From the NCBI RefSeq assembly GCF_037392515.1, contig NC_090295.1:21468001-21532000 (forward strand): a stretch of 64,000 bases of DNA, in the 5' to 3' direction. Below, one piece after another: positions 7,523 through 63,345 of the stretch; position 1 is the stretch's first letter, and every line of letters begins with the position of its first letter. The notes under the pieces were generated by a model. That model was not told the DNA's origin, ran no database searches, and worked only from the letters and a program-made list of their open reading frames with translations. This DNA comes from Haliotis asinina (lineage: Eukaryota; Mollusca; Gastropoda; Lepetellida; Haliotidae). The position numbers and the translations under genes were made by a program.

Positions 7523-9071
7523 CTGGTCAGGAAAAAGAAGTTACGTGAAATTTGATGCTAAAAACAAAGAAAGTCTGCACAATATCAAAATACCTTTGAC
7601 TTGTAATCGCAACCGAAAGTGCGACCTTGAAGATGATGCACAGTGAAATAATTATTGCATATCGAAGAATGTTCTGGTTGTACTGTTCTGTCAGGAGACG
7701 GAAAGAGACTTCAAGGACGAGAAGACATTTAAAAAGAAACGTGTTGCCATCAATTTCTTTGAAGTAGACTATAAGCATGCAAATTTTGGACAAATTTAAA
7801 TAATTTAATTACTTAATAACACACAAATCTGCAAGGAGGCAAATAATCTTTTACCTGTATTATACTTCCACTGCAGTATGCACTGTTGACATCTGACCCC
7901 AACCGGAAGTGACACCTGGACGACCTTCACACCGGTACCCGTGGTAAGGTCATATCTTGTTCTTCCGTCCGCCATCTTTAGTATATGTTGGTCGAAGCAT
8001 TCATGGCTGGCTGCCCTGGTGACGTCATTGTTTTCACACAACCGGAACTCGAAGTAGCCTTTGTGGTTGGCTGTCAGGTTAATCTTTACTGTGACGCTAC
8101 TTCCGGCGGTGTAATGGCGTCCGATTATTCCCTTGGCGAACTTGCCACCGGCCTCGTTATCGCGTGGAAGACTGTCCCATCGATCCCCACAAACCCCGCA
8201 TCTGCCGTTGTTCACGCTCCACAGTACCTGGAACACATGGCAAAGGTCAGATACTTTTACAGGTGTATTTTATTAATAAAAACAGGGCGTGGGGGATGGG
8301 GTGGAGAGGGGTGTTGTGTGTGTGAGAGAGAGAGGGTGGGGGTGGGGTGGGGGTGGGGATGTGTGTCAACGTTATATCACGGCTGTTAAACCTTATAAAC
8401 AGGATCAGAGGGAATATGGGATTCGAGCCCCCAACTACAGGTTCCTGATGTTTCAAAGGGACGCAAATGTTGATATCTACGACGTCACTGCCTATAGTGC
8501 GAAACGTATCGAGTGTTTAGCGCCAAGAAATTACGGAAAATTATGATCCAGGCAAGTCGCAATAAGTACTCGGTGATCAGTTCTGATAAAAACAATCCAT
8601 TTGTAGAAAGTTATGTGTCATGCCAATTTCCATACCTTCATGGCACAAAATCAGCCAGTGGTAATCTGGAAATGGAAACAGGTGAAAGATTAATTCTTCC
8701 TGTCGGAATCTCATATTTGTCCAGTGTAGAACGGATCAACCGTGACCAGTGACTGTACACCCAAAGTTCCAGGATAAAACAGATTTCCGGAACTGACTGG
8801 CTCACCATTTGCATGATGCGACTTGCGGATCGAACCATTGACCTTCTTCTCTACAGGCAGACATATCCACTAGACGACAATCTAAAGAAACACAACTTAC
8901 CCCAAACCCACCGCAAAACAAGCCGTTGTCGTTGTTGTTGACGACGGCTCCGGTGATGTTTTGCCGCCACATACTAGAACGTGCAGGGGGTTCAAACATG
9001 TAACCATGGCAACGGATGACTTCCACCTGACCAGCGATAACCAACAGTATTACTAGAGGTACAACACCCAT
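7431..9071 (-). CDS. AA15 lytic polysaccharide monooxygenase, 3 exons, complete
   Basis: Secreted copper monooxygenase that oxidatively cleaves polysaccharides; family AA15 acts on chitin and cellulose (known of family; substrate here not determined). Exons: 9071-8901 (57 codons), 8227-7855, 7522-7431; both introns are GT-AG and phases join exactly, giving 211 residues plus TAG. Residues 1-21 form a hydrophobic signal peptide; His22 follows it directly (HGYMFEPPARSS), as needed for the histidine brace. The second brace His is His112 (TANHKGYF), i.e. mature position 91, and the C-terminal YYNCADI supplies the axial Tyr region (Tyr202/203). Cysteine-rich motifs (CGVCGD, CQQCILQW, GCGLGRGRQE) match the family. 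No carbohydrate-binding module or C-terminal extension follows. A TATA box lies about 70 bases upstream. It looks intact. The 3' flank is a tandem array (6985-7372). Confidence 0.95.
7855..8227 (-). CDS. AA15 LPMO exon 2
   Basis: 124 codons plus one base. Starts VLWSVNNGRCGVCGD after a TTCCAG acceptor and ends QWKYNTG at an ACAG|GTAAAA donor. Carries the second copper His (ANHKGYF). Confidence 0.94.
8282..8374 (+). repeat. G-rich tract in LPMO intron 1
   Basis: Purine-rich stretch with many G3-G5 runs (GGGGGATGGGGTGGAGAGGGG, then GGGTGGGGGTGGGGTGGGGGTGGGG) flanking a (TG)n(AG)n patch. It is the template side of the LPMO intron and could form a G-quadruplex. It gives spurious ORFs. Confidence 0.8.
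8901..9071 (-). CDS. AA15 LPMO exon 1
   Basis: Encodes the signal peptide, the N-terminal copper His and the CGGFG segment. The donor is GTAAGT, phase 0. The reading frame continues past the donor but loses similarity to the family. Confidence 0.93.
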
Positions 9072-15253: not shown

Positions 15254-16424
15254 GATTGTTGAAAGGAGTTTTGCGGACTTCGTTGTGTGTTGTATTGCAA
15301 GGACGCCCTTTTCCTGGAATATGTCAGCAAAACATCAGCGCTGTCTATGATGGCGTCTTCTCCTTCCACGCTTCAATAAAACAATACCTGTTTGTGGAGT
15401 TAAGGCATTTAAAAATTGGTTTCAACAGAATTTCATGTCTCTCAACGCCTACCCGCTTGGGGAAAGAAAACCGATGGTGAAACTGGACCTTGACGTAAAC
15501 CCGCTTTGGTAAGACCAACTAAAATGTATAACGGTTCCCCCATAACTGAGAAAGTGAGGAACAAGTGACTCGCCAGAGGGGCACAACTCTGTATAGCCCC
15601 AAATATACTGTGGCATCATTGTCATAAAAAAGAAACCTTATACATGCAAACCAAAGCATGAGTCTCATTAACTTATTCAGACAATGACCAATTTTTCAGC
15701 CGATCCGAATTTTCTGGTGTGAAAGTGAAAATAGACGCTACAAACAACCCATGTTACATTGAATTCCAATTCCTTGTTTTATAAGAAAATGGTATTTACA
15801 AATGAACTTTAAGTTAAAAAATTTCTATATTTTATGTCGAGGTGTAGGCAGCATACCACAACTAAGAAATCACAGACTGCAACTGTTTGATGGGGTCGTA
15901 AAATGATTCACAATGCATCAGGCTCACCGGTTACACCTGTTATGTGTTTTGTTTGAGGGTTTGGTTTTTTTTGCCCTTATTCAGTGTAGTTCTGCAAAGC
16001 ACAATGAGACTGATATGATATCACTTCTGTACCAGGCAGCCAAAGTTTTCTAGCGGCAGAGCCTCGTTTTGAGATTTCCAAGATTTCCAGGTTTCCGTTT
16101 GCTGTAAGGCAGAGCTCGCCGTACAACGTGTTTGCAAGGACTAGAAGGAGTGTAGTGTTGCAATATACAAGTGCTTCGACGTATCAAATCATACTGATTA
16201 ATATACAGTATGTTTATGTATCCAGTTAAATGAATTAGTCTAAAAATCTGACCTGGTTATCGCACTACGTTGCGCAATAGGACGGAACCCTGTAAATTGG
16301 GAACGAGACTGTTGTGTAATCAATGTTTTGACTTGCCTCATTGGATATGTCCCGCTGGGGTCTAAACTGGATGGGGTTGGTCACTGTCGGTTGGTAGGAT
16401 TCATAATGGGCTCGTTAATATATT
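15254..16424. other. no gene seen
   Basis: Searched for the missing terminal exon of spermine synthase on the minus strand; none found. No repeat recognised. Confidence 0.55.
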
Positions 16425-16739
16425 AGGGCTGCAACGATTCGGTTCGAATCTGACACCATAGCTTCGATTTTCAATAACCACGATTACTATTCGATATTTG
16501 AATACTTATTTAATAGAACGTAAATTTTACTCCAACTCGGGTAGTTTCGAGCTCTGAAATAAGGATTATTACTGATTATTATCCAATGAGAATTGCTGTT
16601 AGTAGACATCGCCAAGTTGACGATTGATTTCACCCCAAAATAGCCAATTTCGAAAGTTAAGTAAACTTTGATGAACCTGTACATAGAATCGAATCGAAAA
16701 TGATCGAATCGAGGTCTGGATGAATCGGTGCATGCCCCT
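16425..16739. mobile_element. hAT-like MITE
   Basis: Starts AGGGCTGCAACGATTCGGTT; right end reversed AGGGGCATGCACCGATTC, both continuing into TCGAATC-rich subtermini. No clear 8-base duplication. 315 bases. Confidence 0.65.
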
Positions 16740-17277
16740 CACATCAGTCACTAGTTCGTATGAAGAAATGATGATTTTTCTGTAGCTGGAAAAGTGCAAA
16801 GTAAACGTTTTTCTCACTCAGTATAACCAACTGCAAAAACTTTGATTGTGACTTAAATAAATTTTGCACGTGTTTATAACGCATGTCGCTCAAATCACAC
16901 ACACTGGCTCTGTTTTGTTTTGAAGGATACACCTCTTGAAAAGAAGGGACATATTTTGTTAATATGTTGAACTCTAGGCCCATTCGTTGAAGACTCTTCT
17001 TGGTCTCACGTCCGTATTCAGTAGAGCTGGTCGTATTTCCCTGTGTTAATACAATAACATGAATATTTATATACTAAGCGTTAAGATATGCTGACATGCT
17101 GACTGATGTAGCTGCGGTAAAATCCATACAAACACACTATTTCTTTCCAAATAAAGAGATTCTTGAGACTGCAAAACAGCCTCAGCGACAAAACGCGTAA
17201 ATATCAAACGTTTGTCTTGTTCTGGGAGCGTTAGAAGGAAGCTGACCGATTCTAAATCGTTGGTTAAAATTGATACG

Positions 17278-17462: not shown

Positions 17463-17548
17463 CCGTGCCAAATACTTCCCATCAGGAGAGAGAACTTTGA
17501 TGCTCAGCTCCAGAATCACGCTGGATGTGACGAAATCGTACTCAAACC
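17463..17548 (-). CDS. SMS: spermine synthase exon 9
   Basis: FEYDFVTSSVILELSIKVLS then PDGKYLAR, equivalent to human [22 protein letters not shown]. Acceptor CTTGCAG, donor CGG|GTGAGT. If the donor is not used the frame runs on for about 36 codons to a stop at 17355-17357, giving a C-terminus unlike the family. Confidence 0.92.
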
Positions 17549-20264
17549 CTGCAAGATAACTCCAGGAAATAAGACATGCTGCTGCCATGTTGATTTCCGG
17601 GTTTCATTTTCCGTCATGCAGTAATCTTCACACATGAAGGACCTACCGGGTCATATGGTCAGGGCTGGTTGCCTCATGTCATAGCAGCACAATGGCGTAC
17701 ATTGATGCTGATGATGTTGATCACCTGATTTTCTGGTCCAAATTCGAGTATATACAGACTGCAACCATTAAGATAGAATATTGCCGAGTGTGGCGTTAAG
17801 AAACAAATAGACAGTGAAAATAAATGGTTGCTTCCTTCTTGATTTTATTCAGGTCGAATGTTTAGAAGTTAACGGTGACTTTTGATTAAAGTTTAGTAGT
17901 AAAGTCTGCATAATGTTTAGTATTTCAATCAAACATTAGTATGCAGTATATAACCTCAAGGCCGCCGTGTGAAGATCAGAACTGGCACTGATCTTCAATA
18001 ACCCATGCTAGTCGTATGAGGCGAGTAGCAGGATCAGGCGAGTAGCAGGATCAGGCGATCAGCCTCGCTGACTTGGTTGACACGTCATTGTATCGCATTT
18101 GCGGAGATCCATGGTTATGTTGTTAATCACTGGATTGGAATTCCGTCGATTGTTTACAGACCACCGTTATATAGATGGTGCGGGTAGCGTTAAACAATCA
18201 AAAGATAGATGCGATAAAACGCCGCAGTTTGACTTGGAGACTTCATTGTGCTTCTTGATATGTCAGAATTAAATGAATGAGTGAATATGGCTTTACACCG
18301 CTTTTAGCAATATTCCAGCAATATCAAGGCGGGGGAACACAGAAATAGGCTTCACATATTGTACCCGTGTAGGGAATGCAACCTGGGTATTCAGCGTGTC
18401 CAGCAGACGCTATAACCAAAGGGCTACCCCGCCGACCAAGTCAGCATTACAGGATCATGTGTGTTTTTTTCAACCCACGTCAAACGGAAACACTTGATTT
18501 GAAGACCCTTGTCGAAGTTAAATCATTTACTTTACTTTAAATCAATCTAAAGTGTGCAAAGCTCTTCAACCATTTCATTCGTAAAAACGAAATTATCATA
18601 AAACATAGAACAAAATATGGCATGTGACATTTCCTCGTCTATTTGGGTTATATTAACAAACACTGGAATGAATTAATGTTATTGTAGCAGGAATCTAAAC
18701 AGCAGAGTGTGCCAAATTGTTCAGTACATCATAAACTAGTTGATGAGTCACGCACTCTTTCACCGTTATTTTTTGCTCGGCTAATATAACATAATTTGGA
18801 ACATTTGAAAGTTCAGTGAAAGACAGAGCTCATGGTTAAAGGATGAATGGCCTGATGCACATAAACAAATCACGTTAACGATAAAAAATGTTCAAAAGCT
18901 CAGTGCAGGGTTCTAGTGACCGATCTTTGGTAGTTTGGATGTGGTCAGTGTCAATAGGTCGTCTCCAGTTTTCGGATCGGTGAGTGCAATATGTGAATGT
19001 TTCCGGGGTTCACCACTGCCCCCTCCCCCAACAACCCCTTGCTGTATCGCAGGAACTTTGCTCAAAGCAGGCATGCATTATACAATGACTGGCAATGCGA
19101 ACATTACATGAGTGCGTTTTAAGCCCCTTTTTTATAAATATTCCGTCAGTATCACTGGGAACAGACAATGGGCAGCATTGGATCCATTAGGGGATTCGAA
19201 CCCGGGTGTGACGAGCAGGCGCTTTCACCACGCCGAAGGAGCTTTTTCCATTCCCACGTGTTGATGTCTCAATATGGGAATCGAACCCGGATCTTCGGCG
19301 GTAGAAGCAAACGCTTTGACCACTAGGCTAACCCACAGTGCCAGTCCAGTGTATAAAGGAAATATGTGGTCGTGCATGAAGGCGCGGAACACCGTGCATG
19401 ACGTATCTAGGAATCATCATAGAGAAGCTGCGTTGAAAGCAACGAGACACATTTACAACACAAGAGTATCCCTGCTTTGAAGGCTTATACATTACCGTAT
19501 TTTTCCTTGTCGACGTTGAATTCTGTGAGATCGTTAACGACATAGTCAAAGGTTGCATGCCTGTTGCAGGCACGTTTCATGTACTCTATACAGTCACCTA
19601 TCTCGATCTGCAACATAAGACAACGACGTCAAGGGCGGAGGACGTAAAGGGTAGTTGCAGTAGTCGTTGTAGTCACTTGTACGCCACAGTCAAATGAGGT
19701 GACTGGAAACACAGACCAAACCTCAGTTATATGGCTGATTTACGACTTCTACTACTGCGGTGGCTACTGACCACTTCTACAGCAGTCGCCCAATTCGGGG
19801 TATCTTGGGTCACACAGACGTTGAAGTTACTCGAATGCTAGCAAGTTAGTGTTACGTAGGTCAAGATTTACAATTGTCCATGTGATTATCAAGACAACTA
19901 CTGTTACTACTACAGCAAGTGCTACCACCGCTCCAGTGAAAGGACGGGTGAAAATTGCTCTTCAGTAACCCAAGTGCGTAGATCACTGAGGTCATCACTG
20001 GATTGTCTGGTCCAGTTTCATTATTTACAAACATGTAGCAGGGATACTGAGTGCGGCGTACCATACTCATTCACTACTACTGCTGCTGCTGCTGCTGCTA
20101 CTACTACTACTACTACTACAATAAACTATTAATACTATAATTACTACTACTACTAACCATATATCTGGAATATTGCGGAGTGCGGCGTAAAACTTCACTA
20201 CTACTACTACTACTACTACCACTACAATAAACTATTACTACTACAAAAACAACAATTACTACTA

Positions 20265-20301
<37 letters not shown>

Positions 20302-23300
20302 ACCTGCTCCATGTATATGTTGAAACAGTAAGTGTAAACAATGCATGGCGAACAGCATTAAGACAGTACTGTTGTTTTCTTTCCGTACATTCCTCACACC
20401 TTCTGTTTCAGTAGCATAATAAGTACCAATAACTCACCTTGTAATTCTCGCCTTCGTATTGGTCCATTTCACTTCCGCATATACTGCGCATGTGCGTTCT
20501 GCATGCTTTTATAACCTCTTCATCAATTTGTTGAAGTTAAGGCAAATTTGCACGACGCAGTTAGAGGCAATAGCTATGACAACAACAGATTATAACGAGT
20601 ACATAAGGAAGTGTTGAGATATTTTACAGTCAGCTATCTAACCCACTCAGCCACAAAGATGGAACTGGTGGTTGACTAGATTTCTGACACAGCTTTGACG
20701 ACACAATTCCTTTGGTGGTCAGCCGCCAAATACATGTCAACTTTACACTTTCTCAGTAACGTTCAACGTAACGTTTCATTTCATTTTCGCGCTCGTGCGT
20801 GTGAGAATCGAATCATCGACGAAGGATACGCATTTGTAGGCCCTTCTATTCTGTAAATATCAACCTCATATGTATAATTAATATTTTTTTAATATAGATA
20901 AAATAAAGGACTAAATGGGATTATCACATCCCAGTGAAACAATAGGGTTAGTGGAAAGACACCCTCACAACGTTCGCCACCAAAGCTCGTTACGGAAGTG
21001 ACGTCACCAGTAATCTAATACTGATGTTGTTGATCACGTTGATTGCTGTGACCAGCGTCCTAGTGCCTGAACCGACAGCAAAGCACTCGGACTCACATCA
21101 TTTGTTTTCTGCAGGTTCTTATGACTGACAGCTTATTCATTCCCAATAGCTAAGTGCACTGTTTCCATATTAAAACATTCCTACACATTCCGATCAGGAC
21201 CCACTACATGTTATGGTACTGGGTCCTTAGCACCTGCCGCTTTTCGGGTTTACGGGTAAACACTACAACGCCATGCTTTTCGAATAGGGCTCAAAAGTGT
21301 CCATAAATTGGTTCAGGGAAAATGGATTCAGTTCGCTATTGTATATTGCTTGGTATACATATTTCGATTGAAATATACAAGTGCACTGAGGGGCGGGACA
21401 GTTCGTAACATCCATCAGAACGTTGTCAGTTCGTTACATTCGTCAGTTTGTTACACACGTGTTCGGAATAAACGTTGTTCACTGTAAAACCCTAGACAAT
21501 AGAGGATGGTCCAAGTAAAACAATGGAACCCTAAAAGGATATCTCCACCATGGTGACGAACGCTGGTCTGGTCCTCGTGATGAGCTCGTGCAGCAGTCCC
21601 CCGTCTCCTCCACCAAGGATGAGGACAGTCTTACCGTTGAAGTCGTTTCTGTCTAGACCCAGAACCGTCTCTGTGTAGATCAGGTCGCTCTCGCCAATCA
21701 CTGGAGCACGACAGAGAAATAAGGTGAGTAAACCTTGCGATACCTTTCAAAAAAGAGTTTCAGATGAACGCTGAAAGAAAATATTTGGCCTGTAGGTTTG
21801 GTTTAGGTTGGGCTTTAATTACTGAAATAATTGCTTTGGTTACCTCAAATACTGACTGGATCCTTTAATATTCATTGAATATAATTTCATATTGTTTATG
21901 GCAATGTTTAAGCAATATCACGGAAATGGACTCAGCAAGCGGCTACCCACATTTTACCGTTGAGGGGATTTGAACCTGGTCCGAACCTAACCTTACCGAA
22001 CTTTGTTATGTGGTACCAGGAATAATTCTCAATATTCAGACAAAAGTCCGAAATGCGCACTTAAGGCGCACTTTGACGTTAGTTTGAGACTTAACGATTA
22101 TCACTTCACTATTATCAGTTTATGGCGACCTTGGAGCAAAATACGAATTTCCGGGTTACAAATACAAATTACGAAGTTCTTCGTGGGTCAGTGCGTTTGT
22201 TAGCCACCTTGAGTGAATGGACTAGCACTGGCGCAAGTGGCCCTAAAAATCATCTATAGAATACTGCAAGGGAGACATCCAAAATACTATCTTAGTTCTA
22301 CTACGATCGTAACTCACTTACGAAACCGTAAATGTACGATAATCGTAGAGATGAGATCGCGTTGTGGGGCGGGTCCAGAAATGAGTGAGTGAGTGCGTGA
22401 GTATGCTTTTACGCCGCTTTAGCAATATTCCATGAATATCACTACAACACCAGAAATGGGCGTCTCACTTGGCATCCGCGTGGGGAATCGAACACGAACA
22501 CTTTAACCACTAGGCTACCCCACCGCCCTTGTCTAGAAATGAATGTAGGAGTCCAACCTGCTCTCACAAAGCTATCGCAGCTCCATCGTAACTGACATAC
22601 GATGATGTAAACGTACGATTATCGTACAGGTAAGACCGTGGACCCAGAAATGCATAAACGTAAACTCTCATGAAGCTAACGCAGCGCTACGACGATCGTA
22701 ACTCAAACGTGAACTTACAATAAACGAAGCATTAGGAAACTTTTGTGCAAGCTGAGCTGGGTACAGCAGAGCCACGTCCACGTGTGTGCTAACCCGGGTG
22801 TGCTGAATCAGTAAAGGTCAAGGTCATATCTTACTGACGTCATCGTCGAGGTACAGCACGTTGCCGCATTGTTTGGACTTGAAAATTTTAATATTTTGCC
22901 ATCGGGAGGTAGTTTCGAACACCAGTTCCGTAAAATCTCTCTCAATCAGTCTCTCGTCCCCTGTCATCATGAAAGGCCATGGCGGCTCCGTGCTTCTCTG
23001 GACATGGAGGGGTATGCTGCAACAAACAGGGACACAAGGATGAAACGTTGATGGCTTGTAATGCAGAAGTAATATGTGAGGAAACAGTAACAGTCTGGGC
23101 TGAAACAGTGGTGGCTTGTGCTGGAACTGTAATGACTGTCGCTGAAACAATGACGGTCTGTGCTGAAATAATGACGGTCTGTGCTGAAACAATGACGGTC
23201 TGTGCTGAAACAATGAGTGTTCGTGCTGATTTCTTTGTGAATTGTGCCAAGACAGTGACGTTGACGTTTAATTTACCTTTTGGCGAGGAGGCAGTATTTG

Positions 23301-24405: not shown

Positions 24406-27400
24406 GATTAACTACCCGCCTTTATTTGACACATGCGAGCCTAAAGCAAACATTCGTAAATTCAAATATCACATATAAAATATACATATAACGACTGGCT
24501 TTTTAACTAAAATTATTAAAATATGAAAGCCCTAACCACTTAAGTATTCTATCGTCCAAACTCAAATTGTCTACTATGTTTGGGTCTATTATCGACTTCA
24601 GTTTATTCTGGGAAACACTTTTTTCTGTGTTTTCACAAAATTGAGTAAAACCTCAAGATATTTAGCATGTAAGACCTCACACGTACCACTCTCACAAAGT
24701 AGGCCCCACTCACCAACCCACTCATGCACTAACTCTGCCCAACTCAATCACTATCTGTGTCACGCTCTCACTCATTCTCAATAACCCTGCCAAACTCACT
24801 ATCTCTGTCATGCTCTCACTCACTCACTACGCATGCTACACGCACTCACTGTAACCCTGCCAAACTGACTCACTATCTCTGTCATGCTCTCACTCACTCA
24901 CTACGCATGCCACACTCACTCACTGTAACCCTGCCAAACTGACTCACTATATCTGTCATGCTCTCATTTACTCACTCCGCATGCTATGCTCACTCACTGT
25001 AACCCTGCCAAACTGACTCACTATCTCTGTCACGCTCTCACTCACTCACAACGCATGCTACACTCGCTAACTAGCCCATGAAGATCCCGGGTTAGAATTT
25101 GCCTTCAGCAAACCATGCTTGCCTTAAAAGGTGACTATGCTTGTCGTAAGAGGTGACTAATGGGATCGGGTGGTCAGGCTCACTGACTTGCTTGACACAT
25201 GTCATCGGTTCCCAATCGATGCTCATGTTGTTGATCACTGGATTGTCTGGTACAGACTTGATTATTTACAGACCGCCGCCATGTGGTTGGAATATTGCTG
25301 AGTGCGGCGTAAAACTAAACTCACTCACTATATCCGTCACTTTCCCAGTCACTCGATTCAGTTCAATTCAGTTGTGTAGAACAAAACTGTCCATGCCTTA
25401 TATGCAGGGTGGTGGAGGCAATCGATTTAGTAGAAAATTTATCCAAGTGTGTCCACGCATCAAAAATATAGCATTCCACAATCCTACATGCTTAATTTAA
25501 TACTACCAAGTATGTGTACAAAAGTTTAAGACAGAGCCCCTGTACAGTATTGTCTATACATCGCACAGGAGTGTATGCAAAAACAGCAGGGCTATATGAT
25601 AATATAATCTACCGCTATTGCTAAATAATTAGCATTGTGTACCCGAGCGTGGGCGCTTTTGCATTCTACGTTCAATGATGTCTAGTTGTACGCTACAGAA
25701 TAAATATATAAAAGTATTAAGAAGACCTTTGCACAAGTACGGCCAGTACATACAATCAATATTCACAGAATATTTATACAGGTGTGTCCAGGCATGGGAT
25801 ATACACTATTCCATGGTCAATGATGCATAATGTTACTCCCCGGGGTAGATACGGGGTAACAGACCATATCCGATGTCACCTGTGCAGCATGGATGCTATA
25901 CTAGATCGCTATCAACAGTGCTGAGATGATTTGCCATTCCATATTGCTACTTAATTTTTAATTTACAATCTGGATATAGAAACAAAAAAAGGGCTAAATC
26001 CTATATGCAGGCATAAAAGTGATACCTTCACTACCACGCCTGCCACACTCACTCACTAACCCTGCCAAAGTCACTCACTCTATCTGTCACGTTCACTCAC
26101 TATCTCTGTCACAGTCACTTATTAAGCCTTCAACTTTCACTCACTCACTCACTCACTCACGCACTACACCTGTCATGCACATCAACTTATTCACCAGCCC
26201 ACTCACTAACCCTGCCACACTCATCGACCTATTCACCAACTCACTCACTAGCCTGCCTCAGGGCTAAACCCACTCACCCCCTCGCTGCCTTACCGAGGAA
26301 CCGTGTGGCTTTTCGGGTAGTTGTCTTGCGGCTAGTCTTTGCAGGTCAAGTGTCAAGAACCCCGATTGGTACAACCTCATCACCGCGTGACTGAAACATG
26401 CGCGATGGATAAAACATTTATCGTTTAAAGTAAATGTTGTTTTTATTTATAAAGTTTGAAACACACGTTCAATGTTCATCACGTCTCAAGCCCATACGTA
26501 TGCAAATTAGATACGTAAATTTTATAACCGGCAGTAGGACTTTCTTCGCTTAATGTTCTGCGTCCCGTTAAACAATGCGGTGTTAGGGCTAAGAGGATCC
26601 TACGCGGAACTCCCCTTCCTTACCACTGACCTATGACAATCATAGCGCTTAGGTCGTTTTATATAACAACATTCAAGTCGCCAGTCAGCGGTCACAAAAT
26701 ATTAGGGGGTGACTTTTGAGAGAGAAAAACACCTATTGCCATAGCGATAGTCTATTGCAACATTCTATTGCAATAGTATTGCAATAGTTTTCTCTCCTTG
26801 AATTATGTCATTTGACGTCATTTTCCAAATAAATGCATAGTTTGCATGAAATAAAAACAAACAAAATAATAACAAACTTGACACACAGATGTCAACATCG
26901 CTTAGCCTAACCAAGATATCCCTTTCTCGTCTTATCACTTTATTGACTTGTGTTACCGTTTTGTCGTCTCATCGCTTTCTTGCCTGCTGTTATTGCTTCC
27001 TTTTTTTCTCGACTCAAGCTATCGCTTTCTCAATTCACTGAGACAACAATTTGGATGATCGATCACGAGGAATATGTTATCGCTTTCACATTTAGTGTTA
27101 TTACTTTCTCATCTCGTGTTATCGCTTTCTCGTCATCTGTTATTGTTTTCTTACCTTATGTTATCGCTTTCTCGCCATGTTATCAGTTTCTCGTCTCGTG
27201 TTATTGCTGTTTCATTTTGTGTTATTGCTTTCTCGTCTTGTGATATCATTTTCTTGCCTTGTTTTATTGCTTTCTCGTATTGTATTATCGGTTTCTCGCG
27301 TTGTCGTCTTGTGTTATCGCTTTCTCGTCTTGAGTTACCGTTTTCTCGTAGTGGGTTATCACATTCTCGAGAACGAAGAGATGTGTGGAATGGCGTGAGT

Positions 27401-42755: not shown

Positions 42756-44051
42756 CGAGGGGATGTCAAAAAGTTTTGAGTCTTGCATAGTAAAACACAA
42801 AATATTGGTATGAACCACATTTATTTTTCAACATAATCCTCTTGTGAGTCATGACACTTGTTCCATCTTTTCTACCAGGCGCTGATGGCCTTCTCTGTAG
42901 AAGGCGCCATTTTGGTCCTCAAGCCAAGCCTCAGTAGCAGCAATAAGCTCATTATCATCCTGAAATCTACGACCACGCAAGTGTTTCTTGAGATTTGGGA
43001 ACAGATGGTAATCACTTGGTGCCAGGTCTGGAGAGTAGGGGGCATGCAGCAAGATTTCGTATCCTCATTCCTGGACAGCAGCGGCTGCAACGCGAGAGGT
43101 GTGTACTGGAGCATTGTCTTGATGTAGAAGAATACCACGTCTGATCTTGCCCCGGTGCTTCTCCTTGATTGACTGTCGCACTTGCCTCAACAAGTTAGCG
43201 TAATATTCCCCATTCATTGTTCTTCCTTGTGGTAAGTAATCTATGTAGATGACGCCTTTGCTATCCCAGAAGACTGTCGCCATTACCTTCTGCACTGATC
43301 TGGAGGCTTTGAACTTTTTGGTCCTGGGAGAACTGACATGTTTCCATTCCATGGATTCTTGTTTGCTCTCAGGATCATAGTGGTGGATCCAGGTTTCATC
43401 ACAGGTTACTAGCCTAAAGTAAAAATCTTCTGGATTCTTGCTGTATCTGGTTAGCATGGAGTTGCTTATGGTGACCCTTGTTTGCTTCACTTCATCTGTA
43501 AGCATTCTTGGCACCCATCTTGGGAACACTTTAGACATGACGAGATGTTCATGAAGAATTGTCTCTATGGATCCGTGTGAAACGCCTGTGGTCTCCTCTA
43601 ACTCGTGGAGTGTGATTCGACGATTTTTCAGCACAAGTCTATGCACTCTGTCAATGTTTTCCTGACTAGTGCTTGTTGTTGGGCGACCTGGAAGGGGGTC
43701 ATCTTCAAGACTCTCTCTACCATGCTTAAATTCATTGACCCATCGGTTGATGGTAGCAGATGAAGGGGAAGACTCCCCATAAACTGCTCAAAGCCTTTCT
43801 TCAATTTTCTCCGCCGAGTTTCCTTCAAGAACTAAAAACTTAATTACTGCTCTATACTCAATTTTATTCATTTTCACTGCCGTGAGGGGAGTCTCTTTCT
43901 GTCAATGTGAGCTGTTCAATAACTTCTGAGAGTAGGATACCAAAACTTATATATCACATCAGCTACACCCCAAGGTTCAATGTCGTACCATAGGCTGTGA
44001 CACCTGGGTATGAAAAATGCTCAAGGCTCAAACCTTATTGACATCCCCTCT
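42756..44051 (-). mobile_element. mariner transposon, near-complete, TA target duplication
   Basis: A 1296-base element. Its ends are inverted copies: left CGAGGGGATGTCAAAAAGTT and right (reversed) AGAGGGGATGTCAATAAGGT, continuing TTGAG.CTTG. TA flanks both ends (42754-42755, 44052-44053). It carries one transposase frame on the minus strand with two in-frame stops. Both TIRs and the TSD are easy to see, so it is probably fairly young. Confidence 0.95.
42849..43871 (-). pseudogene. mariner transposase (D,D34D) with two in-frame stops
   Basis: 340 codons from ATG at 43871 with the frame kept throughout, but TGA at codon 28 (43788-43790) and TGA at codon 269 (43065-43067). Typical order: N-terminal HTH region (ATINRWVNEFKHG, GRP linker), TLHELEETTGVSHGSIETIL, catalytic Asp158 (CDETW), WVPRMLTDE, Asp252 (HQDNAPVHTS) and Asp287 (YSPDLAPSDYHLFP). 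The last two Asp are separated by 34 residues, the mariner hallmark. No frameshift was seen. Confidence 0.94.
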
Positions 44052-45385: not shown

Positions 45386-46345
45386 CTAGTGTTCCAAGGT
45401 CAAGGTCTCAGAGCAGTCAGCAACTTGTGTGGCCACCATTAGCATTACCATGGTTGATTGGCATCGGCGTCCCATAGACTGGACCAGATTCCGGATGAAA
45501 TGCCTGGGAATGAGGGTCACGCTGGCGCACACGACGATCCGATTGGTCCCACAAATGTTCAACAGGGTTAGGATCCGGTGATCGTGAGGGCCTATCAAGA
45601 TCCTGAACGTTGTTCTGGGCAAAGAAATCCCTGATTATTCTTGCTGCATGCGGCCGAGCGTTATCATGCTGAACAAATGACGTTCTGGTGGTTTATGAAA
45701 GGAAGGACATGAGGCCTGCTGATTTCGTCACGGTAACGTCGGGATGTCAAATTGCCCTGGACCTGAATGAGATCTGTCCATCCACTGTAGGAGATGACAG
45801 CCCAAACCAGGTCCACTTCCTGTACACACTTTGCAGCGTAGCGTTCGTTGCGACGTCGATATACACGTGCTCTTCCGTCGGGACGTCGCAGCATGTAACA
45901 TGACGCATCACTGAAGATAACAGTTCTCCACTTCGGCAATGGCCATGGGGGATGTTGGTGACACCACTGTTTGCGTTCTTGTCGATGTTGACATATAAGG
46001 ACAGGTCCTCGCAAAGGTCTTCTGGAACGAATACCAGCCTCACGTCTGATCAGAAATTGTTCTGGGTCCTGGTTCTACAGATGTTGTGGAGGATGTTGTC
46101 GTGAACCGTTCCGCAAATGTCGAAGACGAATAAACCTGTTGAGAGCGGGCGTGGTCGACTTGACACGGGTCGACTTGACCTGGGAGGATCACGTACGTGT
46201 TGACCCTTGCTGCTGGTAGCGACGCCAAAGTCTTGCTATGGTACTCTGTGACACATCCAGTTGCCTTGCAATCGCAGACTGAGACTCCCCAGCCTCCAAA
46301 TGACCAATCGCATTGTTGAGTCTGAGTCTCCGTAAGTCAAGGCAT
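45386..46345 (-). pseudogene. decayed Tc1-like transposase (D34E)
   Basis: Three pieces in different frames: an HTH with AGESQSAIARQLDVSQSTIARLW (46345-46195), a central block WCHQHPPWPLPKWRTVIFSDAS...GRARVYRRR...NLTSRRYRDEISRPHVLPFI (46014-45670), and a C-terminal block QHDNARPH...SRSPDPNPVEHLWDQ. DNARPH to NPVE has 34 residues between Asp and Glu. A frameshift lies near 45665, another near 46020-46060, and the C-terminus is scrambled. Convincing TIRs were not found. Confidence 0.9.
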
Positions 46346-58292: not shown

Positions 58293-58601
58293 CTACAGAC
58301 TGAGCAATCCCAGCCTCTTGATGGCCTGATACTGATCAGGGATCTCCATGAGGGCATGGAGGGCGAAGGAGGCGGACGGATTCTTCACATCTTGGGTCAC
58401 GCTGTGGTAGTCAACAAAGTGGAAGTTGTCAAACGATCTGGATGGAATCTTCTGGTCAAACTCATCCATCACGTCCCATGGTCCGTCTCCGACCCCCACC
58501 ATGATGATGGACAGAGGGTAGTGAGAGGCCTCAACGATGGCGTCAGTGGTTGCTCGCTCACTTGTCACCTGACCGTCAGCTACGATTACCAGAATGTGGA
58601 A
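58293..58601 (-). CDS. copine-like terminal exon
   Basis: 102 codons and [58 protein letters not shown], ending RLGLLSL. Acceptor TTTCCAG. This is the most conserved part of the copine domain. Confidence 0.95.
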
Positions 58602-61600
58602 CTGGAAAGATCATTATAGAAACATAGTACATGAAATTTAGTGAACTGATCATCAGTGAAGGAAATATTCCTTCTAAATATTAAAAGTATTTTACTTATA
58701 TGATATACATATGTGTATATGGGGCAAAAACAATAAAAACAATTCTTGTAAGTTAACATTTTTTTGCCAATATTTTTGAGTGGGGAAAATTTTTTTTTTC
58801 TTTTTTTTTTTCTTGAAAAACTATGACTGGCAGATTTGTACAACAAGAGGTCAATAGTCATGCCTTTTGCAAATCTTAGGGACCACAAAATGCTGGTGCT
58901 ACCTTGTCTTCTCATACTTCCAGCTGTCCAGTAAGGGTCCATTTCAGCTTGTGGATGCTCTCACAACAAGCATTGGGTACTGGGTACTTACCCTCACCTA
59001 TCTCTCACAACCAGTACTGAATACTGGATACTTGGTACTTATCCCAGCTCAGATCTCTACAGGGTTGCTCTTACAACCATTCGTGGTACTGGGTACTAGG
59101 TACTGGGTACTTATCCTGACCTAAATCTCAACAGTGTTGCTCTAAAAACCATCTCTTGGTACTGGGTACTTGGTACTTATCCTCACCTATCTCTCTACAG
59201 GGTTGTTCTCACAACCAGCACTGGGGACAGGGTACTTAAAACAAGAACAGGGTATGTGGTACTTATCTTGACCCAGATACACTAAAGCCACAAAACACAC
59301 TTAAGCGAGTAGGGTAACTTACTGTTTTGGTTGACTTGACGATTTCAACAGCCTGTTTGATAAGTGGGGCAAAGTTGGTGGGTCCACTAAGACGAACTCG
59401 AGGAGTAATATCATTGTATACTTTTAACACATCCTTGAAACCGTAGCACACACCCTGTAACATATAACACGTCATTGAAGCTTAATAGCACACACCCTGT
59501 AACACAGCCTTGAAGCCATACACCCACCCCTTAATACATAACTTATGATTGAAGCCAATTTGCACACATCCTGTAACATATAACACATCCTTAAAGTCAT
59601 ATCACACCCTGTAACATATAGAGAGAATCTCACCGAAGTGTCTACTGATGTCAAATATATCAACATCGGTTGATAAAGTAACCAATGTCCAAGGCTTGCC
59701 GATGATACATTTAACTTTATCAACAAGTGCTGATATAACTGATATCAGTAGACACGAGGGTGAAATTCTCTCTATCATTCAAAATTGTTATTCATTAGTT
59801 TTCAATGAAAAATGTACATCTCTGAATAAAGAAACTGCCATTAGATTGTACTGCAGCGATGTCATAGCATTGTGACGTTATCAAGCATTGTCAGGGCAAT
59901 TGTGCAAAATCTACTGTCAAAACAATATCTCCTATGAGATACCGTCTGCTCTCACTCAAATGATACATGTATCTCCTGAGGAACACATTTTTTGATGATA
60001 AAAGACATTCTTGAAGCCATAGCACACATCCTGTAACATATAACACATCACTGAAGGTGTAACACACCCTGTAACATATAACATATCCTTGATGCCGCAG
60101 CTCACACCCTGTAACATATAACACATCACTGAAGCTGTAACACACCCTGTAACATATAGATTATCATTGAAGCTTTTGCACACACCCTGTAACATATAAA
60201 CTATCATTTGAAGCCAAACCAGACACCTTGTAACATAACACATCATTGAAGCTATAACATACCCTGTAACATGTAGCTTATCATTGAAGGTGTTGCACAC
60301 ACACTGTCACATATGACTTATCATTGAAGCCATGGCACACACCCTGTGACATATAACACATCAATGAAACTGTAGCAAGATGTAGCACACACCCTGTAAC
60401 ATTACACATCCTCAAAGTCATATCACACCCTGTAACATACATTATACAGCCATGAGCACTGTAACAAAAATACATCCTTGAAGCTGAATCACACCCAGTA
60501 AGAGACAACACATATTTAAAGCTGTACAGCGCAATATTCATGACACTAGAAACGTCACTGATACTGACTTAATGCACAGAGTAACAATTCACAAAAGTGA
60601 CCATTTTTCAGAGTTGTAATCTTCAATAAAACTGATACCTAGATGTGACCAGCTATATTTCCCTTGCAATGTTAAGTTGACACAAACATTCACATACATC
60701 TGAAAATTTCACAGATGAACGTTCATTTTTCCATCTTAGTATGTGAATTTTTTTCCTAAACAAATCAAAACAAAAATTCCAAATCAATAATTCGAAGGAG
60801 TACATTGAAATAATCATAACAGTAGATAAGACAACAAGTAAATACACTCATATTATGCAGTGCATTTCTTAGCATGTTATGTGTGAGTGTGAACAGCCTT
60901 TGTCTAAGAAATACATATATTAATACGCTACATCTGACAAATAATAACACTGCCATGCCATCTTATCAACGCAAAAATACATTTATCCTCATGTTAAAAT
61001 ACATCTATGATGACATTTATGAAATTGGCGATATGGCAAACTAAGTTCCTAAATGGGTGGATAATTATTTAAGCAGGCATTTTGGGGAATATTAAATTTA
61101 TCCTTATTATTCTTAGAGAGATGATAGTTCATCTATTAACAGTGTTCGAAATATCTGCCTGACCAACCACATGGGACAAGTTATTTTCAACATGCCCTGG
61201 CAGACTCTTAAATTCACCTGCCCGACAGTTGGCTAAAAAATTAGACATGCATGGGCAGATGTTTTGTAAACAGATAAGTTTTGGTCAGGGATGGAAGTTT
61301 TACAGCTAATCAGCCCTGTGATCTGGCTGAAATGTGTGGCAGCTTCATCCCCTGGCATTAGAAGTGAATTCAAACATACAAGACACAAAACATGGCCTAA
61401 GAGAAAGACTAAGAATTACTTCCACATCTAAGGTAATCAAGTCAAATTATGGTTACTTTAGTAAGTATACGGCCCATGAAGGTCCGGGGTAGTCTGTCGT
61501 ACAGACCCTGAAGTATATATATCCAAGAAAGCCCACGCAAGTCTAAAAAATGTGTCAAGTCTAGATTTCCATAGCTTCAGGATGAAGAAAGTCTCAGGGC

Positions 61601-63345
61601 TCCATTTCATTATATTTTTTTTTTCAGTATGAACATTTTTCAGTAAAATATGTTCATTTCAGAGACTAGCTGTTAGTCTAGGTCCGGGGTAGAATATGCC
61701 TTCAGCAAACCATGCTTGCCATAAAAGACAGCTATGCTTGTGGTAAAAGGCGACTGGTCAGGCTTGCTGACTTGGTTGACACATGTCATCTGAGTTCCCA
61801 ATTGTGCAGACTGATGCTCCTGCTGTTGATCACTGGATTGTCTGGTCCATGTTCGATTATTTACACACTGCCACCATATAGCTGGAATATTGCAGAGTGC
61901 AGGGTAAAACTAAACTCACTCACTCACTCACTCAATAAGTTTACACCTACTAGACTGGTCAGTATTGTTAAGGAGTAACTTCCCTTCTCATTCATACCAA
62001 TGTGTTTCACCAGTCTTACAACCTCTTCACCCATTTAAACCAGTTTTTAGAGTCTCCAAATGTTCACAATAAGTCACATTCATGGATTATCTCCCTTTCA
62101 CCATTTTTGCAAAATGGCAGAATTTACAGAGGGGTTGTTTAAGGTGCTTTGACTAATTTACGAATGATCACAATAAAGTAACACTGCTAGATTATCTCTC
62201 TTTCACCACATTTTTCCCAGTAAAGGGTATGTTAGGAGTTGCTTGGACTCCTACATATATAACTGATATTTAAATCAATGGCATACACAGAGTCAAGCAT
62301 TGTTTTAATCATGACTAAAATCATATTTTCCATAATCTGTCTGTTTATTTGAAAAATATTTTGTTTCATGGGTAGGACGTATGACTTTGTTTACAAGAAT
62401 ATGGGAATTTGGTAAAAGAATTTCGTGTTAATTGGGCTTTCTTATTTATTTAGAGCTATTTACAACCACAGTGTCACTATGAATAAATATGAAACAAGCT
62501 GTCAACAATGTAATTACCAAAGTAGACAGACTCATACAAACAAGTATATTGAACCAACCTTACTGGAACATGTTTTGCAGAAGCCTTTTGTAACGTATCT
62601 CAAACCTGTTGTAAACGTATCTCAAACCTGTTGTAAACCTATCTCAAACCTGTTGTAAACATATCTCAAACCTGTTGTAAACATATCTTAAACATGTTGT
62701 AAACCTATCTCAAACCTGTTATTCAAGGTGGAAGAGGAGAGACTTCATACAAGGGACACGTGTGACATCAAGAGAACATTGACAAGCACAACACAAACAG
62801 CATGAACACAACATCAATACCTACACAATCATCACTTACATCTGGGCGGAGAGGGAAGATGCCATGGTCCCGTGTCGTCATGTCCCCAAAGCCGAACGCC
62901 GGCATCACACCCTCATTGTCGAATGGTTCCAGGGTCTCGCCAAGAACTTGAATAACCTGAATGATAGATAGGTTTGACGATGGGTATGGCTTTTGACAAT
63001 TTCAGCTATGATGAAGCTGTATGTATTGGCTGTAGATCTATATTATATTATTGTGAACAATTAGAAGATGAATATTCTCATTAAGCCAAAGTGACCTTAA
63101 CTGAATAGTGTTTATTGTGAAACACTGAAATCTCACTTTCTGTCTCTTCCACTTGGTATTCATCACTTATCCTCTGAGACTCACTCGCTCTCTCACTCAT
63201 CCCCTCGCTCACTCACAGTAACCCACCCACCCACTCACTCTTACCTTCTGGTAAGGGTTCTGTTCAGCAGCAGAGATGTCATGCAGACACTTCTTCCCGA
63301 AAGTCTTCTTCCCCTGCTGGTAGTTGCTGGCTGTGTAGTCCACGC
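58293..63345 (-). CDS. copine/RGLG-type VWA domain protein, 3' part (5' end outside window)
   Basis: The C-terminal copine domain, a von Willebrand factor A fold. Copines are Ca2+-dependent membrane-binding adaptors; RGLG proteins pair the same domain with a RING. Exons: 63345-63245, 62956-62840, 59454-59323, 58601-58293; all phases join (about 219 residues, TAG at 58293-58295). Metal-site (MIDAS) pieces are visible: D-x-T-x-S in VDYTASN, the Thr in [11 protein letters not shown], and the Asp in [38 protein letters not shown] and [15 protein letters not shown] are diagnostic. The protein stops right after the domain, so no RING finger is encoded in this model. Exons for C2 or other N-terminal parts must lie beyond 64000. 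The intron before exon 59323-59454 holds an array of copies of that exon's acceptor. Confidence 0.94.
58950..59275. repeat. about 75-base minisatellite, copine last intron
   Basis: Four or five degenerate units with GGTACTGGGTACTTATCC, CTCTACAGGGTTGCTCT and ACAACCA. CTACAGGG resembles a splice acceptor on the other strand only, so it has no obvious splicing role. Confidence 0.88.
59323..59454 (-). CDS. copine-like exon, GPTNFAPLI segment
   Basis: Exactly 44 codons: [20 protein letters not shown], then [18 protein letters not shown]. Acceptor TGTTACAG, donor ACA|GTAAGT. The first ten codons and the acceptor are repeated many times upstream in the intron (59455-60535). Confidence 0.94.
59455..60535 (-). 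repeat. array of copies of the copine exon 3' splice site
   Basis: On the minus strand the unit, 35-60 bases, reads about TATGTTACAGGGTGTGTGCT then ATGGCTTCAAGGATGTG, the same as the true acceptor and first codons of exon 59323-59454 (GVCYGFKDV). Some 15 degenerate copies, interrupted by a MITE-bearing insert (about 59610-59995). An open frame crosses much of it. Confidence 0.9.
59621..59774. mobile_element. MITE inserted in the copine intron array
   Basis: GAGAGAATCTCACCGAAGTG (left) and the reverse of GTAGACACGAGGGTGAAATT (right) form about 30-base TIRs around TCTACTGAT. It, with following unique sequence to about 59995, interrupts the acceptor-copy array. Confidence 0.7.
61139..61345. repeat. 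dispersed repeat D, copy 2
   Basis: Shorter copy of the 56663-56951 repeat; ends CAGCCCTGTGATCTGGCTGA. It lies in a copine intron. Confidence 0.65.
61680..61936 (+). mobile_element. SINE family B, full length
   Basis: GGTCCGGGGTAGAATATGCC head to (CTCA)n. A second loose head (GGCCCATGAAGGTCCGGGGT) is at 61467. Copine intron. Confidence 0.88.
62588..62722. repeat. about 22-base minisatellite
   Basis: Six copies of TATCTCAAACCTGTTGTAAA with small differences. Copine intron, 120 bases from the exon ending at 62840. Confidence 0.93.
62840..62956 (-). CDS. copine-like exon, FGFGD segment
   Basis: Exactly 39 codons: [20 protein letters not shown] then [10 protein letters not shown]...FPLRPD. Acceptor TTCAG, donor GAT|GTAAGT, phase 0 at both ends. 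Confidence 0.95.
63245..63345 (-). CDS. copine-like exon with MIDAS DxTxS
   Basis: Two bases plus 33 codons: [20 protein letters not shown]..., ending NPYQK|GTAAGA. Matches IDFTxSN and SLHxI...NPYEK of copines and RGLG. Acceptor CCTGTAG. Confidence 0.93.

Follow-up and report, generated by a model that had tools for sequence, protein, structure and literature searches.

The spermine synthase gene on the minus strand of the Haliotis asinina DNA analysed here (a window of 64,000 nucleotides) very probably harbours a genuine U12-type spliceosomal intron with AT-AA ends, a reading to which we assign a probability of about 0.9 on the evidence of the sequence; the gene is an animal gene of intact appearance, and an AC just inside the 3' end of the intron would lie too near the branch A to be used. 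The sequence-only reading that preceded this analysis had given the same coordinates and letters for the intron and had left its strand unsaid, which is the minus strand. The intron and its elements are the following:

20528..21542, minus strand: predicted U12-type intron with AT-AA ends, 1015 nt, phase 0, from frame and motifs
21534..21542, minus strand: U12-type 5' splice site ATATCCTTT, 9/9 to RTATCCTTT
20536..20542, minus strand: U12-type branch site CCTTAAC (TGCCTTAACT), 9/10 to TTCCTTRACT
20530..20531, minus strand: passed-over AC, 8 or 7 nt from the candidate branch A
20528..20529, minus strand: 3' terminal dinucleotide AA, from sequence and frame

The identity of the gene as a spermine synthase, proposed earlier from the letters, holds up in homology searches. 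Its top relative amongst solved structures is human SMS (3c6k, E 1.5e-50), followed by the best spermidine synthase at 3.5e-16 (26 distinct sequences matched), and the gene product has a Pfam match to Spermine_synth (3.4e-24). A tblastn search of the window with human SMS returned seven hits, five of which are exons in order with starts at 22979, 21698, 20530, 19610 and 17594; the other two, at 26392 (E 3.1) and 15322 (E 9.2), are at chance level and were discarded. The edges of the five exons (A to E) were placed from splice signals and frame, and the exons form a single open frame. Exon F was located via a weak C-terminal match (E 0.13) and a regular acceptor, and in turn led to the stop-terminated last exon, G; the alignment score of 45 between the C-terminal piece and human SMS was reached by none of 5000 shuffles.

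22835..23016, minus strand: exon A, aligned part corresponding to human SMS residues 124-168 (tblastn), 5' edge presumably set by the TTGTTGCAG acceptor
21543..21700, minus strand: exon B, ending ...VTMVE, directly upstream of the AT-AA intron
20438..20527, minus strand: exon C, starting IDEEVIKAC
19496..19607, minus strand: exon D, from tblastn with human SMS and edge setting
17463..17548, minus strand: exon E, from tblastn with human SMS and edge setting
16931..17040, minus strand: exon F, ...VPSFQEV
15345..15387, minus strand: exon G, last coding exon, YCFIEAWKEKTPS (first codon split) and stop

Exon B ends ...ACC ATG GTG GAG at 21543 and the intron opens with ATATCCTTTT at 21542; its 3' end reads CCTTAACTTCAACAA, of which ...TTTGCCTTAACTTCAACAA closes at 20528, and exon C opens ATT GAT GAA GAG at 20527. 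The only mismatch of the branch site is the G for T in the second place of TGCCTTAACT. The candidate branch A, at 20538 or 20537, lies 10 or 9 nt from the last base of the intron, and between branch site and intron end there is only TTCAACAA, without a distinct polypyrimidine tract, so that the earlier description of a U12-like branch site lacking such a tract stands. Over positions -20 to -4 the pyrimidine share is 0.65, compared to 0.53-0.76 in the other five introns, and does not separate them. The consensus strings used for scoring agree with the RUAUCCUU and UCCUURAY given in the part of PMC10853781 consulted.

Four of the introns found in the gene (A/B, C/D, D/E and E/F) are ordinary GT-AG introns, with donors matching GTRAGT at 4-6 of six places. 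They match the U12-type 5' splice site at four to five of nine places, against 9/9 for the AT-AA intron, and their best branch-like matches are 7, 7, 8 and 7 of 10 against 9/10, a score that sets the AT-AA intron apart by just one or two places. The remaining intron, between exons F and G, did not figure in the sequence-only reading and appears to be a second intron of the U12 type:

15388..16930, minus strand: second putative U12-type intron, GT-AG, 1543 nt, phase 2, GTATCCTTC...TGCCTTAACTCCACAAACAG

Its 5' splice site, GTATCCTTCA, matches at 8/9 and its branch site at 9/10, with the branch A 12-13 nt from the end TGCCTTAACTCCACAAACAG. A donor two bases upstream, GAG|GTGTAT, would yield EVLFY and a stop and lose the conserved C-terminal end, for which reason the U12 donor two bases further on is preferred. 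The branch regions of the two U12-type introns are alike (TGCCTTAACT); as both lie near the common consensus, the likeness needs no special explanation. The second intron fits the known GT-AG U12-type introns and differs from others of its class only in that an AT-AA minor intron occurs in the same gene. Genes with minor introns usually have one or two of them amongst major ones, according to the part of PMC6865273 available to us.

The AT-AA intron shares with AT-AC U12-type introns the ATATCCTTT start, the CCTTAAC near the 3' end and the lack of a pyrimidine tract from there to the 3' end; unlike them it ends in AA, and its branch-to-end distance is slightly short. In its AT-AA ends combined with U12 motifs it would be of the same kind as the non-canonical AT-AA U12-type introns of conserved animal and plant sets, as excerpted from PMC10639083, and as the CENATAC-dependent human A-type AT-AN introns described in the portion of PMC8280824 used here. 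The same excerpts record AT-AA introns in animals and plants (PMC10639083) and amongst human minor introns (PMC8280824); AT-AA U12-type introns are already known, and what would be new here is the instance in spermine synthase. The ending had been called very rare. Rare it is, since non-canonical endings make up about 3.8% of the conserved animal minor-intron set and AT-AA accounts for less than half of 75% of these, arithmetically under about 1.4%, but within the excerpted part of the same source it is also the commonest non-canonical ending of conserved minor introns in animals (PMC10639083). That part further names molluscs as relatively rich in minor introns, and puts phase 0 at an average of 22% for minor introns (PMC10639083); the phase 0 of the AT-AA intron was counted against the U12-type reading. 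Our literature search, which covered papers, retrieved none pairing spermine synthase with a U12-type or minor intron, and searches on human SMS introns and on AU-AA returned nothing; databases or supplementary tables may well already include the intron. A pattern scan of viral contigs for relatives matched five stretches, none of which was confirmed.

The far greater frequency of AT-AC than of AT-AA amongst minor introns (AT-AC makes up 24% of human minor introns in the part of PMC8280824 cited above) lends some weight to a U12-type intron that truly ends in AC, with an assembly error at 20528 (A for C, transcript sense) and CAACAC as the true end. One wrong base would suffice to turn an ordinary AT-AC intron into the AT-AA one. 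We nevertheless regard such an error as improbable, given that the sequence has no sign of it and that no stop or frameshift interrupts the seven exons found.

Support for the AT-AA junction itself comes from the reading frame. The junction MVE|IDEE aligns to human MVEIDQ with no gap, and both flanking exons align with human SMS. A junction trial comprised in-phase GT-AG, GC-AG, AT-AC and AT-AG pairs together with the AT-AA pair, its donors starting 30 nt inside exon B and its acceptors reaching to 20 nt short of the end of exon C. Of the 3036 in-phase pairs of donor and acceptor, 40 were free of stops, the AT-AA pair included. The AT-AA pair ranked first of these 40, with a score of 217 against human SMS residues 166-251, which together with the 9/9 match of the 5' site and the 9/10 match of the branch site bears out the earlier assignment to the U12-type class with AT-AA ends. 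Ending the intron at the AC two bases up (20531-20530), which the sequence-only reading had ruled out from the frame, yields MVEKLMKRL and a stop; an end at the AT two bases down meets an immediate stop, and upon intron retention translation stops after MVEISF. The branch site CCTTAAC contains an in-frame TAA 9 nt before exon C, and from this TAA to the conserved ATT GAT there is no AG. Positing a further exon inside the intron does not help either, since its junction with exon C would again call for an acceptor at ATT GAT, where no AG is to be had.

The further claim that the frame forces AA was too strong. Frame and stops favour the junction, but the intron and exon C both begin with AT, so that the intron can slide through three registers, the third of which would read AT-AT, with identical mRNA; for this reason spliced reads alone cannot fix the register, and it is the U12 5' splice-site motif that selects AT-AA. 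Together with the in-frame stop that lies in the branch site and the absence of any AG beyond it, the frame makes AT-AA the best junction of those tried.

Joining AT to an AG instead would end the intron after GAAGAG (20516) and give a protein without IDEE. This pair, were the minor spliceosome to use it, is in frame and free of stops, and is the runner-up amongst the best 15 of the 40 pairs listed (193 against 217), and AG is a commoner ending than AA. It would, however, delete the I and D that are retained in all seven distinct sequences with alignments listed (26 having matched in the structure search). The earlier note had described the whole of VEID as conserved, which is true of ID; several of the listed sequences have C or another residue in place of V, one has D for E, and the motif is better written (E/D)ID. 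The AG also lies 21-22 nt from the branch A, far above the best branch-to-3' splice site distance of 11-13 nt given in the part of a review seen by us, which in addition terms AT-AG disfavoured (PMC3584512). We consider its use very unlikely.

Joined together, the seven exons A to G form one open frame of 259 residues with a stop where human SMS ends, and the product is identical to human SMS at 107 of 240 aligned positions. Spermine synthase has an N-terminal AdoMetDC-like domain, and searches upstream on the minus strand did not find it: no N-terminal (5') exons were recovered by tblastn, or by Pfam in the three minus-strand frames between 22990 and 64000, where a GldN match fell below the cut-off and was disregarded. 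The missing N-terminal exons would suit a dead gene copy whose AT-AA end is a product of decay, but a decayed copy is hard to reconcile with the open frame and the identity to human SMS, or with the regular ends of the other five introns, and it too seems very doubtful.

Taken singly, the U12 motifs are no more frequent in the window than chance would have it: RTATCCTTT was found twice (1.38 expected) and CCTTAAC seven times (7.38 expected). Of 63880 minus-strand positions scored as donors, two reach 9/9 and 21 reach 8/9, and a 9/10 branch-site match occurs 9-20 nt upstream of 24 of 20000 random acceptor positions, a range set after the 9 of the AT-AA intron had been seen. If the two are independent, the joint chance of both motifs is about 4e-8 (the product of the counts; six introns were looked at). 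As far as the sequence goes, the placement of both motifs at the edges of a homology-defined exon pair is beyond chance. An ordinary GT-AG intron with U12 motifs by accident is highly improbable, the chance frequency of each single motif notwithstanding, because the top GT-AG pair amongst the best 15 of the 40 listed removes VEIDEE (182) and no AG is available from the in-frame TAA to ATT GAT.

In the minor spliceosome the U11/U12 di-snRNP recognises the 5' splice site and the branch site together, and U6atac then replaces U11. For the AT-AA intron, the di-snRNP would jointly bind ATATCCTTT, a perfect match, and the branch site CCTTAAC, U6atac would take over from U11 at the 5' splice site, and the 3' end would be selected largely by how far it lies from the branch A. 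The first AC, at 7-8 nt, would be too close, and the next usable position would be the AA at 9-10 nt, which is the nearby one preserving the frame; that AA rather than AC ends the intron is likely due to this short distance of the upstream AC. The spacing of 9-10 nt itself falls under the 11-13 nt optimum. The intron could have arisen from an AT-AC ancestor by an AC-to-AA base change, or by shortening of the spacer. Its actual splicing, the operation of the spacing rule at its 3' end and its ancestry are what we infer from these features.

Elsewhere in the window, Pfam Copine matches in three frames (58305-62959, minus strand, best 1.8e-32) probably mark exons of a copine gene that lies upstream of the spermine synthase gene. 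An LPMO_10 (lytic polysaccharide mono-oxygenase) match lies at 7850-8212 on the minus strand (E 4.9e-12), and a Mariner/Mos1-like transposase at 42942-43865 on the minus strand (Transposase_1 5.8e-24, DDE_3, HTH_48), with another helix-turn-helix match at about 45952-46329. No Rfam match at gathering score was obtained for RNA genes in the window. An interspersed repeat is built around GCAATATTCCAGC / CCAGACAATCCAG, several copies being preceded by repeated GAGT, and presumably resembles repeats of abalone and other vetigastropods:

645, 12781, 14708, 18307, 30321, 41222, plus strand: copies of the interspersed repeat
61893, 52665, 25250, 20010, 11064, minus strand: copies of the interspersed repeat

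An AT-AA intron is of a type that gene models following the GT-AG rule would be expected to mispredict. The upstream AC, apparently skipped, offers a natural test of whether, for the minor spliceosome, branch-point distance counts for more than which dinucleotide ends the intron. In human cells loss of CENATAC affected 92% of A-type minor introns, the class that includes AT-AA, as reported in the part of PMC8280824 relied on here, and by analogy the AT-AA intron of spermine synthase may have the same dependence. There is a slim chance that the 3' ACAA works as a tandem acceptor, use of the AC leading to frameshift and decay and use of the AA to the enzyme; were this so, the amount of spermine synthase would track the activity of the minor spliceosome and its A-type factor, and the second minor intron would be a further brake. 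With two minor introns in one gene, polyamine synthesis in the animal would rely on the minor spliceosome at two points.
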